Positions 31,882-40,869 of a stretch of 40,869 nucleotides of DNA are shown in pieces. Origin of the DNA: Candidatus Melainabacteria bacterium. GTDB taxonomy: Bacteria > Cyanobacteriota > Vampirovibrionia > Obscuribacterales > Obscuribacteraceae. The position numbers and the translations under genes were made by a program. The notes beneath the pieces were generated by a model, which ran no database searches, had not been told where the DNA came from, and worked only from the letters and a program-made list of their open reading frames with translations. The first letter of the stretch is position 1. Every line of letters begins with the position of its first letter. The stretch is taken from assembly GCA_003175915.1 (NCBI GenBank), contig PSRH01000216.1, positions 1-40,869 of the forward strand, written 5' to 3'.

Positions 31882-34266
31882 TCAAACAGATTGGCTGTAA
31901 CCTGGACTAGGGCGAATAGCAACTGAGCTGGCGCCAACCGGTAATAAATCCCTCGCCTCAGTAAAGAGCTTGCCGGTTCTGATAAAAACCCGGTTCTCAC
32001 CGGTCGCCGGAAGAGAGAGATGGGCAACTTTCAGGTAACCATTTAGCTCTGCCAAACCGATTAGATCCTTTATGTGCGGAACGTAGGCGTCATCCATAAC
32101 AATCGTGCACCCGCCCGGAGCGTTGCGAAGCACAAAGTCAAAATCGAACCGCACATCATCCGGGCTGTGACCGCCGTCCACATGGATAATTTCAAAATCG
32201 AGCTTGTGCTCCAATTCAAGGGAAGGGAGAAGTTCACGCGTTGCTCCCAATAGGAAGCGGAAGCGCCCGGGATATCGGCTGGCAATTATTTCGGCGCACG
32301 CTCGCGTATAACCGTGCAGTCCAATATCTATTGAAGTAAGTTGAAGGCATGGGTTCGCGTCCAGCATTACCACCGCGCTATGTCCGGCATTGAAGCCTAA
32401 CTCCAGCGCTGTTTGTCCGACGCCGGTTGCTCTTCTTAAAACTTCTCGCTTCCACGATCGCCTTGGATCAGGAGGAGTACGTGGGTGGACAGGGCGCTGA
32501 TGGAAATAACAGTAATTCCCCTCTAACGGTTCGTCGCTCTCGAGCACCGCCTGATTGATAAGCCGGATCGTCTCCAGAGCATGCGAACTCCACCACTCCG
32601 GATGGAAGAGCGCAGGCGCGGGATAACCATTCGGCAAGTCGGGTAGGCTCAGGGCACGCCAGGAAATATTTTCGGCCGACTCTGCATCAAACGGCTTACG
32701 ATCGACGGTGCGCCCGTTTGTGTGTTTGTGGTGGATGACGGAAAATACCGGATTGGTGTGGCGCCAGTCTATATCTATCGGGTTGCAAGTTAAGCCGGCG
32801 GCCCAAAGAGCATAGTTGAAGGAAAGCTGGTCGCGGCGTGCTCCGTTTAAAATAGCGTCCCACCAGAAACGATCTGCGGCGCGCACTTTGGAGTCTCGCA
32901 GATCGCGTGCCAATAATAGTGTGGCCGAAAGTCCCTGATCATCCTTGAAGCCAAGGTCGCGCATTTGATGCCAAAGTCGGCTGGCGGAGATTCGATCTTC
33001 GACACTCAAGAATTCCATAAGAGTCTTCTCCGCTTCGATCTTCTCGCGAATAAGATGTGGCGGAGCAGCGACCGGACCATCTTTTAGCCATGCCAAAATT
33101 GCTTCACAATCAAAGCACAGATCACGTAGGTTGCCGTCTACCCAAATGACAATAGAATCCTGCTCGAAAAGCAACTCAGGATTTGCCTTGAGAAATCCAG
33201 AAGTCACCTTCCGGTCTCGGAATATATTGTCGACGGGCACAATTGACCATGGTGGTGGGCAAGTGATAGCGGTATCCGTGAATGCCAGGTAGGTGATTCT
33301 CGGGTCAACGTGGGCGATGCTCGGAAGTTCGTCATATTCACCCAGAACAGCCGTGTAAACGTAGATTTTTGGATCACAATTCAACCCGGGTTCTGTGGTC
33401 TTAGCGACGCTAATAGAGACTTTTTGTGACCAGGGATTGGCGGTGCGTCCCTCTGCTCGTCCGCGTGTGAGATAGTGGACAAGCGGATTGATCCCGGCTT
33501 CGGCAACATCTGGATTCTGCTCAAGATACCAATCGGTGTCGAACATGGAATTTGGATCTAAGCCTTGCGCTGCTCCCCAACGCAGGTAATGTTCGAGCGG
33601 ATTGGTGCCTGAATCAGCAACATTCGGATGGCGCTGAAGATACCAGGTACTGTCGAACATTGGGTTCGGATCGCGGCGCTCAACCGTTCCCCAGCGCAGA
33701 TAATGTTCGAATGGGTTTAGACCGCATTCGGCAATGTCCGGATACTTCTGGAGATACCATTTGCTGTCAAAAAGTGGACTGGCGTCCCGATGCTCGGCTG
33801 CTCCGATTCGCAAGTAGTGGGCGAGCGCAGATAACCCTGTCAGTAAAACATCTGGGTAACGTTGTACGTACCAATTAGCATCGAACAAAAAGTTGGGGTT
33901 GCGTCCCGATGGAGCTCCCACCGTTATATAGTGCTCCAGAGGATTGGCGCCGGAGAGGCGTACCTCTGGATTTTGCTCAAAATACCAGGCGGTATCGAAC
34001 ATTGCATTAGGATCGCGGCCCTCTAAAGCCCCCCAGCGAATGTAGTGCTCGAGTGGATTAATACCTGCTGCTGCGACATCCGGGTTATGCAGACGATACC
34101 AGGCAGTGCTAAATAGAGGATTGGGGTCTCGGCCAAGCGCCGCTCCGACTCGCAGATAATCTTCCAGCGCATTCACGCCTGCTTGAACGACTTCCGGGTA
34201 CTCCTTTAAGTACCAGTCAGAGTCGAACAAACAGGAGCTAGTTATGATTGGGATGATTTGATCCAT
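31882..34266 (-). CDS. Multidomain: seven ~38-aa repeats + glycosyltransferase-like (DUF616/TOD1-like) + class I methyltransferase
   Basis: Repeats (LFDxxWYLxxxPDVxxxGxNPLEHYLRxGAxEGRDPNP); YTAVLGEYDELPSIAHVDPRITYLAFTD; ALELGFNAGHSAVVML...IIHVDGGHSPDDVRFDF. Confidence 0.8.
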   Translation of the reverse strand: MDQIIPIITSSCLFDSDWYLKEYPEVVQAGVNALEDYLRVGAALGRDPNPLFSTAWYRLHNPDVAAAGINPLEHYIRWGALEGRDPNAMFDTAWYFEQNPEVRLSGANPLEHYITVGAPSGRNPNFLFDANWYVQRYPDVLLTGLSALAHYLRIGAAEHRDASPLFDSKWYLQKYPDIAECGLNPFEHYLRWGTVERRDPNPMFDSTWYLQRHPNVADSGTNPLEHYLRWGAAQGLDPNSMFDTDWYLEQNPDVAEAGINPLVHYLTRGRAEGRTANPWSQKVSISVAKTTEPGLNCDPKIYVYTAVLGEYDELPSIAHVDPRITYLAFTDTAITCPPPWSIVPVDNIFRDRKVTSGFLKANPELLFEQDSIVIWVDGNLRDLCFDCEAILAWLKDGPVAAPPHLIREKIEAEKTLMEFLSVEDRISASRLWHQMRDLGFKDDQGLSATLLLARDLRDSKVRAADRFWWDAILNGARRDQLSFNYALWAAGLTCNPIDIDWRHTNPVFSVIHHKHTNGRTVDRKPFDAESAENISWRALSLPDLPNGYPAPALFHPEWWSSHALETIRLINQAVLESDEPLEGNYCYFHQRPVHPRTPPDPRRSWKREVLRRATGVGQTALELGFNAGHSAVVMLDANPCLQLTSIDIGLHGYTRACAEIIASRYPGRFRFLLGATRELLPSLELEHKLDFEIIHVDGGHSPDDVRFDFDFVLRNAPGGCTIVMDDAYVPHIKDLIGLAELNGYLKVAHLSLPATGENRVFIRTGKLFTEARDLLPVGASSVAIRPSPGYSQSV
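33435..34230 (-). repeat. Seven in-frame 38-codon (about 114-bp) tandem repeats inside the CDS
   Basis: Direct reading of seven consecutive repeat units in the translation. Confidence 0.9.
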
Positions 34267-34549: not shown

Positions 34550-35455
34550 ATGACTAATGAAATTGATCGCAGGGAATTTTTGAAGTTGGCTGGAATAGGC
34601 GGTGTTGTCTTTGTCTCCAGTCTCGGTTATGAACAGATTGCGTTCGCGCGTAAGCCAAAACCGGAAGACTTCTATTTCGTTCAGCTCTCGGACAGTCATT
34701 GGGGATTTGAGGGCAATAAGATCAACCCTGACGCGAAAGGAACCTTGAAAAAGGCAATTGCTCAGGTGAATGCACTGGAGCAAAAACCGGATTTCATCGT
34801 TTTCACCGGCGATTTGACTCAGACGACCGATGAGGTAAATGTTCGTCGCGCTCGCATGAAAGAGTTTACCAGCATTGTTTCCGAGCTGAATTGCCAGGAC
34901 GTTAAGTTTATGCCGGGAGAACACGACGCCTCGCTCGACAACGGCGAAACGTACAAAGATTTCTTCGGTAAGACACACTACACTTTCGATCATAAGGGCG
35001 TGCATTTCATTGCTATAGACAATGTGTCGGATCCAACTGGAAGCATTGGAGAAGAGCAGCTCGAGTGGCTGAAAAACGACCTGGCTACGCAGTCACGCGA
35101 TAGCAATATTGTCGTGCTTGCCCACAGGCCATTGTTCGATCTTTATCCTCAGTGGGACTGGGCAACGAAAGATGGTGGCAAAGCAATCGATCTGCTCATG
35201 CCTTTCAAGAATGTTACCGTGTTTTATGGACATATTCACCAGGAAAATCATCACACGACAGGGCACATCGCTCATCACTCGGCAAAATCATTGATGATGC
35301 CGATGCCGGCGCCAGGCTCGGTGCCCAAGCGAGTACCGGTACCATGGTCTGATGCGGAACCCTACAAGGGTCTTGGATTTCGCAATGTTGATAGCGAATC
35401 GAGGCGTTCCACATATCTTCTTTCCGAATTTCCCATCAAAGGAGTGATTTCATGA
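34550..35455 (+). CDS. Tat-type exported metallophosphoesterase
   Basis: DRREFLKLAGIGG Tat-like signal; QLSDSHWG, FTGDLTQ, GEHD, AHRPLF, YGHIHQ calcineurin-like motifs. Confidence 0.9.
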   Translation: MTNEIDRREFLKLAGIGGVVFVSSLGYEQIAFARKPKPEDFYFVQLSDSHWGFEGNKINPDAKGTLKKAIAQVNALEQKPDFIVFTGDLTQTTDEVNVRRARMKEFTSIVSELNCQDVKFMPGEHDASLDNGETYKDFFGKTHYTFDHKGVHFIAIDNVSDPTGSIGEEQLEWLKNDLATQSRDSNIVVLAHRPLFDLYPQWDWATKDGGKAIDLLMPFKNVTVFYGHIHQENHHTTGHIAHHSAKSLMMPMPAPGSVPKRVPVPWSDAEPYKGLGFRNVDSESRRSTYLLSEFPIKGVIS

Positions 35456-35811
35456 GAGGCACTGCAACTATTGCTTTACTTGCTGCTTTTGGATTCTTAG
35501 TGGTGGCGTTCAATCCAGGAAACGCCAGTGAGCCGGAACAGGTGATAAAAATCAGTGCGAAAAAGTTTGAATTTATGCCTAATCAGATCACCTTGAAAAA
35601 GGGTGTTCCGGTTGTGCTAGAGCTTACATCTGAAGACAGGGTACATGGTTTCAACGCGCCGGACTTGAGGGCTCGGACTGCTATATTACCTGGCAAGACG
35701 ACAACGCTTAGAGTGGTACCGGAAAAGGTAGGAAGCTTCGATTTCTTTTGCGATATCTTCTGCGGCAGTGGCCACGAAGGCATGAATGGCAAAATCAATG
35801 TAACGGAGTAG
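35452..35811 (+). CDS. Exported cupredoxin with a CuA-type ligand set
   Basis: Signal peptide; DRVHGF...FFCDIFCGSGHEGM (C-x3-C-x3-H-x2-M as in COX2 CuA). Confidence 0.85.
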   Translation: MRGTATIALLAAFGFLVVAFNPGNASEPEQVIKISAKKFEFMPNQITLKKGVPVVLELTSEDRVHGFNAPDLRARTAILPGKTTTLRVVPEKVGSFDFFCDIFCGSGHEGMNGKINVTE

Positions 35812-35812
35812 C

Positions 35813-36448
35813 ATGGTAAGCATGGGTCTGAACGCCTTTTTCAATCGCAAAAGAGAGTTTGAGAAGCTCACCTGGTGCTTTGGAGGACAGCTCTACCGTC
35901 TTGCTTTTTCGCGCTTGAGCAATCAACAAGATGCTGAGGACGTGGTTCAAGAAACCTATTTGCGAGCCTTTCGCTCCTTTCATACACTGGCACCAAACAG
36001 CAATACCAGGGCCTGGCTAATCAAGATCTTGCTCAATGTTATCCGCGATCACTACAGCAAGATGCTCAGGACTGTGCCTACTGAGCCCATTGATGAAAGC
36101 TCTGAGGAGGAATTAAGCGACGACAATTTGCTCAGCCATAGCAAAAATCCGGAAGATAAACTGTTAGATAATGAAATCGACGCAGGCTTACTGCAGGCCC
36201 TGCAATCGTTGCCCAGCACTTTGCTCTATCCGCTATTGTTGCGTGAAATCGAAGATTTGAATTATCAAGAAATTGCCGGTGTCCTTGATATCCCGGTTGG
36301 TACAGTCATGTCGCGCTTGTTCAGGGCTCGCCAGAGTTTGCGAATTAAGCTCGTGCAAAAGAGGCAAATGCCGCAATGCGAAAATGATTCGTCCAAGCAC
36401 CTGTTGGGCGATGGTTTGTCGAAACAAGGAAAACGAAATGACCTGTGA
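35813..36448 (+). CDS. ECF-type RNA polymerase sigma factor
   Basis: Region 2 LAFSRLSNQQDAEDVVQETYLRAFRSFH; region 4 LREIEDLNYQEIAGVLDIPVGTVMSRLFRARQSLR. Confidence 0.93.
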   Translation: MVSMGLNAFFNRKREFEKLTWCFGGQLYRLAFSRLSNQQDAEDVVQETYLRAFRSFHTLAPNSNTRAWLIKILLNVIRDHYSKMLRTVPTEPIDESSEEELSDDNLLSHSKNPEDKLLDNEIDAGLLQALQSLPSTLLYPLLLREIEDLNYQEIAGVLDIPVGTVMSRLFRARQSLRIKLVQKRQMPQCENDSSKHLLGDGLSKQGKRNDL

Positions 36449-37217
36449 GGATGTCCTACCTTTACTGAATCTTCTTGCCGACGATGCCCTTGGTAACCAG
36501 GACGCGGCTCGCATCCTTGAGCACCTTAAAGAATGCAGTCACTGCCAGGGCGAATGGGATGCGATTCTGGCAGTGCGCTCCGGAATGCGGCGCAGAAGAG
36601 ACGCCATTGAGGTGCCGCCCACCCTGATGGACAAAGTCAGCAAGGCGGTGGACCGGGAAAATAAACAAAGACCGATTGCGGCAGTTGCCAAAACATTTAA
36701 CGCCCCGAGTTTAGCGATGGTGGCTGGTCTGGTGCTTTTGATCGTTCTTGCTTCTTACCTCTTTCAGCATCTAAATGCTGGCACTGTGCCCGTCGAAGTT
36801 GCTGCTCTGGTTAACCGGGAATTCAATGCCGATCCGGCTTTTGAGCTGGTCGACGATCGCGAAGCTTTGTCCGACCGGCTCGGCTACCCGATTCGATATC
36901 TTAAATTCGCCGATTGGAAAATAAACCAGGCCGGCACGTACCGGGCTAGGAATATTGAGGGAAATGATCGCTTAATTGCTCGCTTCGAGCTTGAGCGGAG
37001 GTTGGCGGGCAAAGCAGAGAAAATCTATTGTTATCAAGCGCCGGCTGGTGCCCTCAAGGCCGCATCGTTGCTTGAAAAGGATGTCGGGGGTAGGAAAATC
37101 AAGGTGGGGCGGCAAGGTCCGCTCAGCTTCGCTTGCTGGACTGAGAATGAACGGGACTATTTGCTGGTTTCGCCCTTGTCTGAAGAGGAACTGGAGGATT
37201 TAGTCCGCTCTGTCTGA
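36438..37217 (+). CDS. Membrane zf-HC2-type anti-sigma factor
   Basis: HLKECSHCQGEWD zinc motif, single TM SLAMVAGLVLLIVLASYLF; overlaps sigma stop; ATG at 36438. Confidence 0.85.
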   Translation: MTCEDVLPLLNLLADDALGNQDAARILEHLKECSHCQGEWDAILAVRSGMRRRRDAIEVPPTLMDKVSKAVDRENKQRPIAAVAKTFNAPSLAMVAGLVLLIVLASYLFQHLNAGTVPVEVAALVNREFNADPAFELVDDREALSDRLGYPIRYLKFADWKINQAGTYRARNIEGNDRLIARFELERRLAGKAEKIYCYQAPAGALKAASLLEKDVGGRKIKVGRQGPLSFACWTENERDYLLVSPLSEEELEDLVRSV

Positions 37218-38690: not shown

Positions 38691-40115
38691 ATGACTTGGC
38701 TAAGGGCTGGCTCTACCGTTAGCGCTTATGTACTCTTATTCGCACTGGCAGTGTATAGCATTTTGCCAGCCGCCTTTGCCTATAAAGCATGGGGAAAGGA
38801 TGTCTTTGTGGGTGTTCAGCCGCGCGTTCACGGAGCAATCACTAAACACCTGTCGCATCTCAATAGCCAGATGGCCGGAGCAGGCAATGCCAGGGTCAAT
38901 GGTATACGGGACAAATGGGCCTTGCTGATCGGTACCAATCTGTACCAGGACAAGACAATTAAACCGATGCGCATTGCCCGCAACGACGTGCTTCTCATTT
39001 CCGCCTTGCTAAGGGAACCGGGCAGCGGTCGCTTTGCCGGCGATCACATCAACTATTTGATTGGTAAAAGCGCCACCCGGGAAGCGGTCGAGCAGGCAAT
39101 TTTGAATTCGTCGCTGATCAAAAATGCTCTGCCTAATGATCTGATTCTTCTATATCTTTCCGGGCGCACGCTGCCTTTGGGCCAGGAGCGCGACCTCTGC
39201 CTCTGCACTTACGATACCCTGGCTTCCGAAGCCGGTATTTCTGGTCTCAAGCTCGCCGATGCCCTGACTCAGTTGAGGAAGCGCACGCAATGCCCTCAGA
39301 TAGTCTGCGTTCTCGATTGCGCTTCGGTATCCAAAAAAGACTTTGAGCAGAATGTTGTCTCTCTTGAGGAGCTTTCAAGAAAAACGGGAGTTTCAATCAT
39401 CTCGGCAAGCGACTTGAGCGAGGATACACCGGCTTGCTACGGCGGCACCATCTCCAGCTTCGCTCTCTACTTTGCCAATGCCATTAAGAACAGCTCGGGG
39501 AATTGCTCTTTAGCGATGATCGTTAACTATGTTCAGGACAACCTCAACAGGGAAAGCCAGGAGCTTGGCACAGCCAGCCAGGCGGTCAGTTTCATACCGT
39601 CTGAGAGCAACGCCAGAGCCAGGGACATTGTTCTGGGAACGCCGGTGAGGAATGCCTCAAGACGGGTGGCCATTGGCCACAATGTGAAGACGCTGGCACT
39701 CGATCGTCCCGACCTCACATCTTCCTATCGAGGGGTCGCTATAGCCAACAATACGGTGCCGGCTCAACCCCATGGACGAATCATTAACGGAAAGACCCCG
39801 GATGAGGATGAGGAGGAGAAGAACTTCTCCAAAGTGGATTACGGCCCCTGGATGGACAAAATGAAACGGGACATTCGCTCGAAATGGCGGCCGCCCAAGG
39901 GTTTAGAGCAAAGACACGTGGCTGCCGTTTTGACCATTAAGAGGGACGGTTCAATAGTGACGCCCTCTCTAGTGGAAAGCAGCGGCAACGCGGCTGTCGA
40001 CCAAAGTGCCCTGGATGCCCTCAAAGCAGCCTCACCTTTAGATCCCTTGCCGGCCGGCGCGCCTGCCTCGGTGCAGGTTCGCTACGTCTTCGATTGGAAG
40101 GTCGCAGGCCATTAG
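38691..40115 (+). CDS. Exported caspase-fold (C14-like) protein with TonB C-terminal domain; apparently catalytically dead
   Basis: DKWALLIGTNLYQD, GDHINYLIGKSATREAVEQAI, PNDLILLYLSGRTLP, IVCVLDCASVS, SIISASDLSEDTPACYGGTISSFALYFANAI; C-term KRDIRSKWRPPKGLEQRHVAAVLTIKRDGSIVTPSLVESSGNAAVDQSALDALKAASP. Confidence 0.8.
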   Translation: MTWLRAGSTVSAYVLLFALAVYSILPAAFAYKAWGKDVFVGVQPRVHGAITKHLSHLNSQMAGAGNARVNGIRDKWALLIGTNLYQDKTIKPMRIARNDVLLISALLREPGSGRFAGDHINYLIGKSATREAVEQAILNSSLIKNALPNDLILLYLSGRTLPLGQERDLCLCTYDTLASEAGISGLKLADALTQLRKRTQCPQIVCVLDCASVSKKDFEQNVVSLEELSRKTGVSIISASDLSEDTPACYGGTISSFALYFANAIKNSSGNCSLAMIVNYVQDNLNRESQELGTASQAVSFIPSESNARARDIVLGTPVRNASRRVAIGHNVKTLALDRPDLTSSYRGVAIANNTVPAQPHGRIINGKTPDEDEEEKNFSKVDYGPWMDKMKRDIRSKWRPPKGLEQRHVAAVLTIKRDGSIVTPSLVESSGNAAVDQSALDALKAASPLDPLPAGAPASVQVRYVFDWKVAGH

Positions 40116-40277
40116 TTAAGATAAAGTGACTACGTATTATCCACATTGACGGAAAAGTCCGCCGGCAGTAACGTCTTAATGTGTGCTCAGCCTATATCAG
40201 GTTTGGAGCGTCCGACATCTAGATATTTAAGGTCGGACAAGCAAAAGGCATTGTGGGGGTACCCAAGAGGACTGAAA

Positions 40278-40649
40278 ATGACTCGCAGACCAAATGAAAT
40301 AATTCCACCATCGGAAAGACCAGACGAGTCCCACCAGGGGGTTCACAGTAAGCTCGTTCAGGACAGTATTGGTACTCGGGGTGAAGTCCGCACCGAAAGA
40401 CCGGTAGCTGGCGCTGACGCACTTTTGGCTGGCGTGGATCCGACAACCTATATCAGCGAGCTCAGTTCTCGCTTGGCACCCCGCGTAGCGGCCTTAAGAA
40501 ATGTCGTCGATCCGCATGTGCTGGGGGATTGGGCAGCCATTCTCAACTCCTGCAGGGATCCAAGAGCCAACAACGATACTGATCTGGCTTCGGCTCAAGA
40601 TGTGCACCTGCGACTCATGCAAAGAATCGCCGGGAATCAGACGGCTTAA
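40278..40649 (+). CDS. Hypothetical protein (maximal ORF starts 40146)
   Basis: MTRRPNEIIPPSERPDES...; AAGAGG SD upstream of ATG 40278; no recognised domain. Confidence 0.5.
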   Translation: MTRRPNEIIPPSERPDESHQGVHSKLVQDSIGTRGEVRTERPVAGADALLAGVDPTTYISELSSRLAPRVAALRNVVDPHVLGDWAAILNSCRDPRANNDTDLASAQDVHLRLMQRIAGNQTA

Positions 40650-40817: not shown

Positions 40818-40869
40818 GTGCCTAATATCAAGTCCGCGATCAAGAGAGTCGAGATAGCCGAAAGAAATC
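40818..40869 (+). CDS. rpsT: 30S ribosomal protein S20, 3'-truncated by window edge
   Basis: GTG start; MPNIKSAIKRVEIAERN matches the S20 N-terminus; AGGAG SD upstream. Confidence 0.88.
   Translation, partial: MPNIKSAIKRVEIAERN

Follow-up and report, generated by a model that had tools for sequence, protein, structure and literature searches.

The window, that is, the whole stretch of 40,869 nucleotides that was analysed, contains a forward-strand gene with an ATG start near its end (38691..40115), which encodes a protein of 474 amino acids. The product is composed of a predicted cleavable signal peptide (residues 1-30, 38691..38780), a caspase-like C14 domain (residues 70-320, 38898..39650), a linker (residues 321-382, 39651..39836) with an acidic run DEDEEE (39801-39818), and a C-terminal domain of the TonB/TolA type (TonB_2, PF13103; residues 383-471, 39837..40103), all encoded on the forward strand. 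The open reading frame is real, as 38 full-length orthologues from the same family were found. A decaying pseudogene was ruled out by these stop-free sequences and by dN/dS ratios between 0.035 and 0.16 for the C14 domain (Nei-Gojobori, nine close pairs with computable dS). These low ratios show that the domain, although catalytically dead, is maintained and not decaying.

A sequence-only reading of this gene had proposed a caspase fold, and this was borne out by several comparisons. Residues 70-300 match C14 paralogues of the same genome with a best E-value of 4e-18. The NCBIfam model NF047832 ('caspase, EACC1-associated type') matches the protein with 57.5 bits (E 1.3e-15), which is below the curated cutoff of 140 bits for this model (caspase_w_EACC1), and by this score the protein is related to that family and not a member of it. 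The same model matches all 39 orthologues, and Pfam Peptidase_C14 matches 19 of the 39. In the window protein itself, the Pfam C14 model has no match and TonB_2 is the only Pfam domain found. An AlphaFold model built with 39 orthologues as input has a mean pLDDT of 82, with values mostly above 90 in the C14 and TonB regions. The best match of this model in a Foldseek search against the PDB was the MALT1 paracaspase (3v4o, E 1e-10, TM-score 0.74 by target length), and further matches were metacaspases, the bacterial protein GSU0716, and caspases. The sequence-only reading had left the p20/p10 fold to a structural comparison, and model and search together recover the alpha-beta fold of the clan CD C14 p20/p10 type. 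A chance resemblance to caspases was ruled out by the paralogue matches, NF047832, AlphaFold and Foldseek.

Both catalytic residues of this domain are replaced. In an alignment with 58 C14 domains that carry His-Cys, most of them from Obscuribacterales, the catalytic His of the SxHG box corresponds to R159 (39165..39167), which agrees with the substitution by Arg reported earlier for 39159-39170, and the catalytic Cys of the DxCxSG box corresponds to A211 (39321..39323). The Cys had been described as shifted or lost. It is lost and not shifted, since C210 (39318..39320) lies one residue ahead of the catalytic column. A role of C210 as a shifted nucleophile was ruled out because the residue is not conserved, with L, T, A, S or C among others in the orthologues, and has no His partner. 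The loss of both residues extends to all 43 family sequences aligned with C14 domains. The His column holds Arg or Lys in 39 of them and never Tyr, and the Cys column holds Ser (18 of 43), Ala, Thr, Gln, Asn, Gly, Leu or Tyr, and never Cys. Active C14 peptidases carry His in SxHG and Cys in DxCxSG, neither of which is present in the window protein. As a p20 homologue with a substituted dyad, it falls under the definition of pseudo-orthocaspases (PMC6426788), without the Tyr-Ser substitution that is common among them.

Homologues with an intact dyad, for which a search had been proposed, make up nearly all other C14 domains from the same scans: His-Cys is kept in 58 of 59, a sample that was gathered via similarity to the family and therefore is no census, coming mostly from Obscuribacterales, with a few domains labelled Acidobacteria or Proteobacteria. 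The single exception (L004 1321-3042, G000:C9:18051-18821) is a second pseudo-caspase of the window's own genome. This protein has a signal-peptide-like start, a C14 domain and C-terminal TPR-like repeats, and its His is replaced by Leu (STLG) while the Cys is retained (QACYSG).

One alternative would be proteolysis by a relocated or alternative active site. This would be in line with the intact fold, the invariant D209 and Y155, the frequent Ser at the Cys column, and H330, which is part of a new conserved motif. This motif, IGHxxxxLxxxRPDL (residues 327-342, 39669..39716), lies C-terminal to the caspase fold and is specific to the clade, with G329 in 42 and H330 in 37 of the 43 sequences; the region is a gap in nearly all other C14 proteins. 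However, an intact His/Cys dyad in other positions, as considered in the sequence-only reading, is excluded for a Cys protease because no Cys is conserved anywhere in the family. Furthermore, the column that replaces the Cys varies freely, and most conserved positions in the domain are common to active proteases and hence structural. For these reasons, a protease of this kind is very improbable.

The export signal proposed for the N-terminus was found as a hydrophobic core (residues 14-25) and an SPase I-like AFA site ending at residue 30, a call that is based on a rule-of-thumb motif and not on SignalP; an uncleaved anchor is conceivable. Of the 45 homologues scored, 40 combine a hydrophobic core with an AxA-type site behind it, and a TM-like stretch was seen in the mature part of none of the 45. 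The proposed TonB-like domain at the C-terminus is likewise supported, as TonB_2 matches residues 385-462 with an E-value of 2.5e-13 and a score of 50.4 bits versus a curated cutoff of 22 bits, and all 39 orthologues match. By sequence, the domain also matches the structures of TonB (5lw8, E 1.9e-6) and TolA (1lr0, E 2e-4).

These matches, together with ExbD in 12 of 12 genomes, would fit an energised TonB/TolA paralogue, whose N-terminal segment stays in the inner membrane and couples to ExbB/ExbD and whose caspase fold serves as a rigid spacer in place of the Pro-rich stalk. We consider this unlikely due to several observations. The cleavage motif follows the core in those 40 homologues, the N-terminal region has a mean identity of 15.5 % without a conserved TM residue, and the gene adjoins rsmI, rpsT and murC instead of exbB/exbD. 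In addition, another TonB gene of the window's genome heads a conventional tonB-exbB-exbD operon, so that the energised role is already filled. TolB was not found either, with TolB_N in 0 of 10 genomes, including the window's own (65 % complete), and a positive E. coli control. TonB-dependent receptor barrels were found in only 3 of 10 genomes. A Pro-rich periplasmic stalk is absent from the window protein, which has a short, acidic linker. Among the other TonB-domain proteins of its genome, those that were read start with a hydrophobic TM-like segment, and their linkers are mostly rich in Pro.

The taxonomic distribution shows that most members of the order Candidatus Obscuribacterales (class Melainabacteria/Vampirovibrionia, phylum Cyanobacteriota), which are uncultured, non-photosynthetic relatives of cyanobacteria, carry one gene for an exported pseudo-caspase-TonB protein. 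Full-length members occur in nearly all genera of family f1. They are also present in f2, a second family of the same order, in two genomes and in both cases likewise without the dyad. In the scans of genome contigs, a query with a single protein gave no match, and the orthologues were found with an alignment as query. Outside the order, a scan of 236 other genomes of the class gave no match at E<=1e-60, and a scan of 385 other genomes from the phylum, some of them the same class genomes, gave none at E<=1e-35. No other case of C14 and TonB in one open reading frame was seen among the loci scanned, and none of the 59 other C14 proteins sampled has a TonB domain.

The 43 family sequences form a single clade in the C14 tree with a support of 100/100, which indicates that the dyad was lost once, before the split of f1 and f2. 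Since full-length members without the dyad exist in both families, the fusion and the dyad loss are older than this split. The C14 domain of the window protein has one of the longest branches in the tree (1.45). Mean pairwise identity is 59 % for the TonB domain, 36 % for the C14 domain, 28 % for the linker and 15.5 % for the N-terminus. Measured by identity, the TonB domain is thus more constrained than the caspase fold, and judged from these comparisons the fusion is an old, selected protein of the order.

A natural deletion was found in genus g6 (G010 and G011, loci L082 and L083), where the gene before rpsT-murC-murB encodes just 156-163 amino acids, namely the signal peptide, a linker with IINGKTPDD or VINGSTPED, and the TonB domain. 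No C14 remnant was detectable around the short gene, and G011 (96 % complete) has no C14 match anywhere. Because g6 is sister to the window's genome and nested within f1 in a MurC tree (97/93), and because the linker of the window protein carries the common IINGKTPDE, the short form is derived and arose by deletion of the caspase domain. Should the TonB domain be sufficient on its own in g6, the core function would not require the caspase domain. The genus offers a ready-made control for domain loss. Locus L081 was rejected as a further short form, as it ends at a contig edge instead. The reverse of g6 was observed at L086 6702-8618 (G030) and L087 7269-8891 (G032), where the TonB domain encoded by this gene has diverged strongly. 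One of these two genomes is Candidatus Obscuribacter phosphatis, and at L086 the linker is long and rich in NQAGNQAG-type repeats.

The outright deletion in g6 and the faster evolution of the C14 domain compared to the TonB domain could also be explained by a structural envelope protein that is attached to peptidoglycan or the outer membrane through its TonB domain and has the caspase fold as a mere folded spacer or bulk domain. However, dN/dS is near 0.1 or below in most pairs, and the retained motif IGHxxxxLxxxRPDL points to a more specific role, which makes a purely structural function rather unlikely.

The gene usually lies between rsmI and rpsT-murC-murB. At 44 loci, rpsT was found as a neighbour in 41, rsmI, murC and murB in 39 each, and uppP in 32, with gene names taken from our reading of the cluster sequences. 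In the window, the start of rpsT (ribosomal protein S20; 40818..40869, forward strand) is truncated by the contig end. The last 52 bases (end of L216) recur at the end of contig C225, on which the assembly continues with rpsT-murC-murB, so the window's genome has the same gene order. The location beside the mur genes may be mere chromosomal order.

At 12 loci, including both f2 genomes, the next downstream genes are homologous to each other and form a group whose products have predicted membrane spans. Pfam Yip1 matches three of the four scanned members of this group, one of the three below the cutoff, and in the f2 genomes the gene follows at a distance of 5-7 bp. This neighbour is absent from most genomes, including that of the window, and looks ancestral and lost in the window. 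An open reading frame for up to 167 amino acids (40146..40649, forward strand) sits at its place, with no Pfam match and no homologue detected.

At 24 loci, the upstream neighbour is a stand-alone gene for a DNA-methylase-like protein of about 760 amino acids with an NPPY motif. An example is L072 8912-11203, where the two genes overlap by 7 bases at the start of the pseudo-caspase frame. It is absent from the window and from the second family, and is therefore probably not ancestral. The window itself contains an ECF sigma factor gene (35813-36448) with an overlapping frame for a zf-HC2 anti-sigma-like protein (36273-37217), adjoined by a cupredoxin (35452-35811) and a metallophosphoesterase (34550-35455). 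A VreA-type system formed with this sigma/anti-sigma pair was dropped, as the pair is near this gene at no other locus. On the reverse strand, 31882-34266 encodes a protein of 794 amino acids, in which a methyltransferase domain comes after about seven N-terminal repeats with the pattern FDxxWYLxxxPDVxxxGxNPLEHYLxxGxxEGRDPNP.

Three C14 proteins of the window's genome with readable N-termini (L006, L010, L012) have signal-peptide-like starts, so this lineage may export caspase homologues generally. The pseudo-caspase could therefore meet active C14 proteases, and a regulator similar to cFLIP, the human precedent for a regulator with a dead caspase domain, would pair with these proteases or shield their substrates. 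Nevertheless, four genomes (G019, G020, G048 and G051, 93-98 % complete) keep the protein and have no other C14 according to the Pfam model, which argues against a general role in regulating active caspases. Co-localisation with C14 genes was not found either, and we regard such a regulator as quite unlikely.

The best explanation, to which we would give an even chance given the sequences and the structural model, is a soluble, secreted, non-proteolytic adaptor of the cell envelope. The signal peptide would be cleaved, leaving the protein free in the periplasm and not as a TonB energised by ExbB/ExbD. The TonB domain would dock on a conserved envelope partner, which could be another protein with a TonB-box-like strand, or else peptidoglycan or the outer membrane. 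Pseudo-enzymes commonly act as binding modules, and the dead caspase domain may bind a protein or peptide in this way and bring a second partner to the docking site. In the ancestral arrangement, the best candidate for this partner would be the putative inner-membrane Yip1-type protein encoded just downstream. Sequence or model show for this adaptor an export signal without a second membrane span, the fold, a single dyad loss in the order's ancestor, strong purifying selection, a TonB domain that is the more constrained part and survives alone in one lineage, and a locus beside genes for cell-wall precursors. The envelope scaffold or sensor suggested by the sequence-only reading is compatible with this class of function, which we prefer; beyond that reading, the analysis adds an order-wide orthologous family, an ancestral and fixed dyad loss, and a TonB domain as the more constrained part. 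More tentatively, and with the balance somewhat against it, the exported pseudo-caspase with its TonB docking domain, ancestrally together with the Yip1-type protein, could form an order-specific, non-proteolytic module that connects inner membrane, cell wall and outer membrane or reports on them. If so, the caspase fold would have been put to new use as a binding module beyond the cytoplasm.

Pseudo-orthocaspases are a recognised class and accounted for 8.6 % of bacterial caspase homologues in a 2019 survey, mostly with Tyr-Ser, and 90 % of them were from Alphaproteobacteria and Cyanobacteria; their occurrence mainly in photosynthetic lineages led to a tentative link to photosynthesis (PMC6426788). 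The text of this survey mentions neither TonB nor Melainabacteria. A survey from 2012 reported 71 Pfam domain types and many possible signal peptides in prokaryotic metacaspases, and TonB is absent from its text (PMC3501461). No description of a C14-TonB fusion was found in the literature searched, which was covered in part. Here, a non-photosynthetic sister group keeps a near-universal exported pseudo-caspase, and some genomes have no other detected protein with a caspase fold, which indicates that pseudo-caspases are separable from photosynthesis and from caspase-driven cell death. The family thus offers a clear setting in which to ask about the role of the caspase fold in the absence of catalysis.

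Compared to the pseudo-orthocaspases of Cyanobacteria and Alphaproteobacteria (PMC6426788), the family shares the p20 fold, the substituted dyad and the conservation within a lineage. It differs in having Arg or Lys with mostly Ser, Ala or Thr instead of mostly Tyr-Ser, and in being exported with a TonB end, whereas those proteins have TPR or extended C-termini. The active C14 proteins (orthocaspases) of Obscuribacterales share the fold and most structural residues, and those read in the window's genome have similar signal-peptide-like starts, but they keep the dyad, often carry TPR repeats and lack the TonB domain. The energy transducers TonB and TolA resemble the protein in the sequence of the C-terminal domain, although here there is no apparent membrane anchor, no Pro-rich stalk and no exbB/exbD or tolQR operon. 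VreA of the PUMA3 system in Pseudomonas aeruginosa is a non-transporter protein that also ends in a TolA/TonB C-terminal domain (PMC2729926). As its N-terminal lobe it has the signalling domain known from TonB-dependent transducers and not a caspase fold, and no homology is claimed for this part. Two-lobed, predicted to be periplasmic and lacking a beta-barrel, VreA is the closest precedent for a TolA/TonB-type C-terminal domain on a protein other than TonB.
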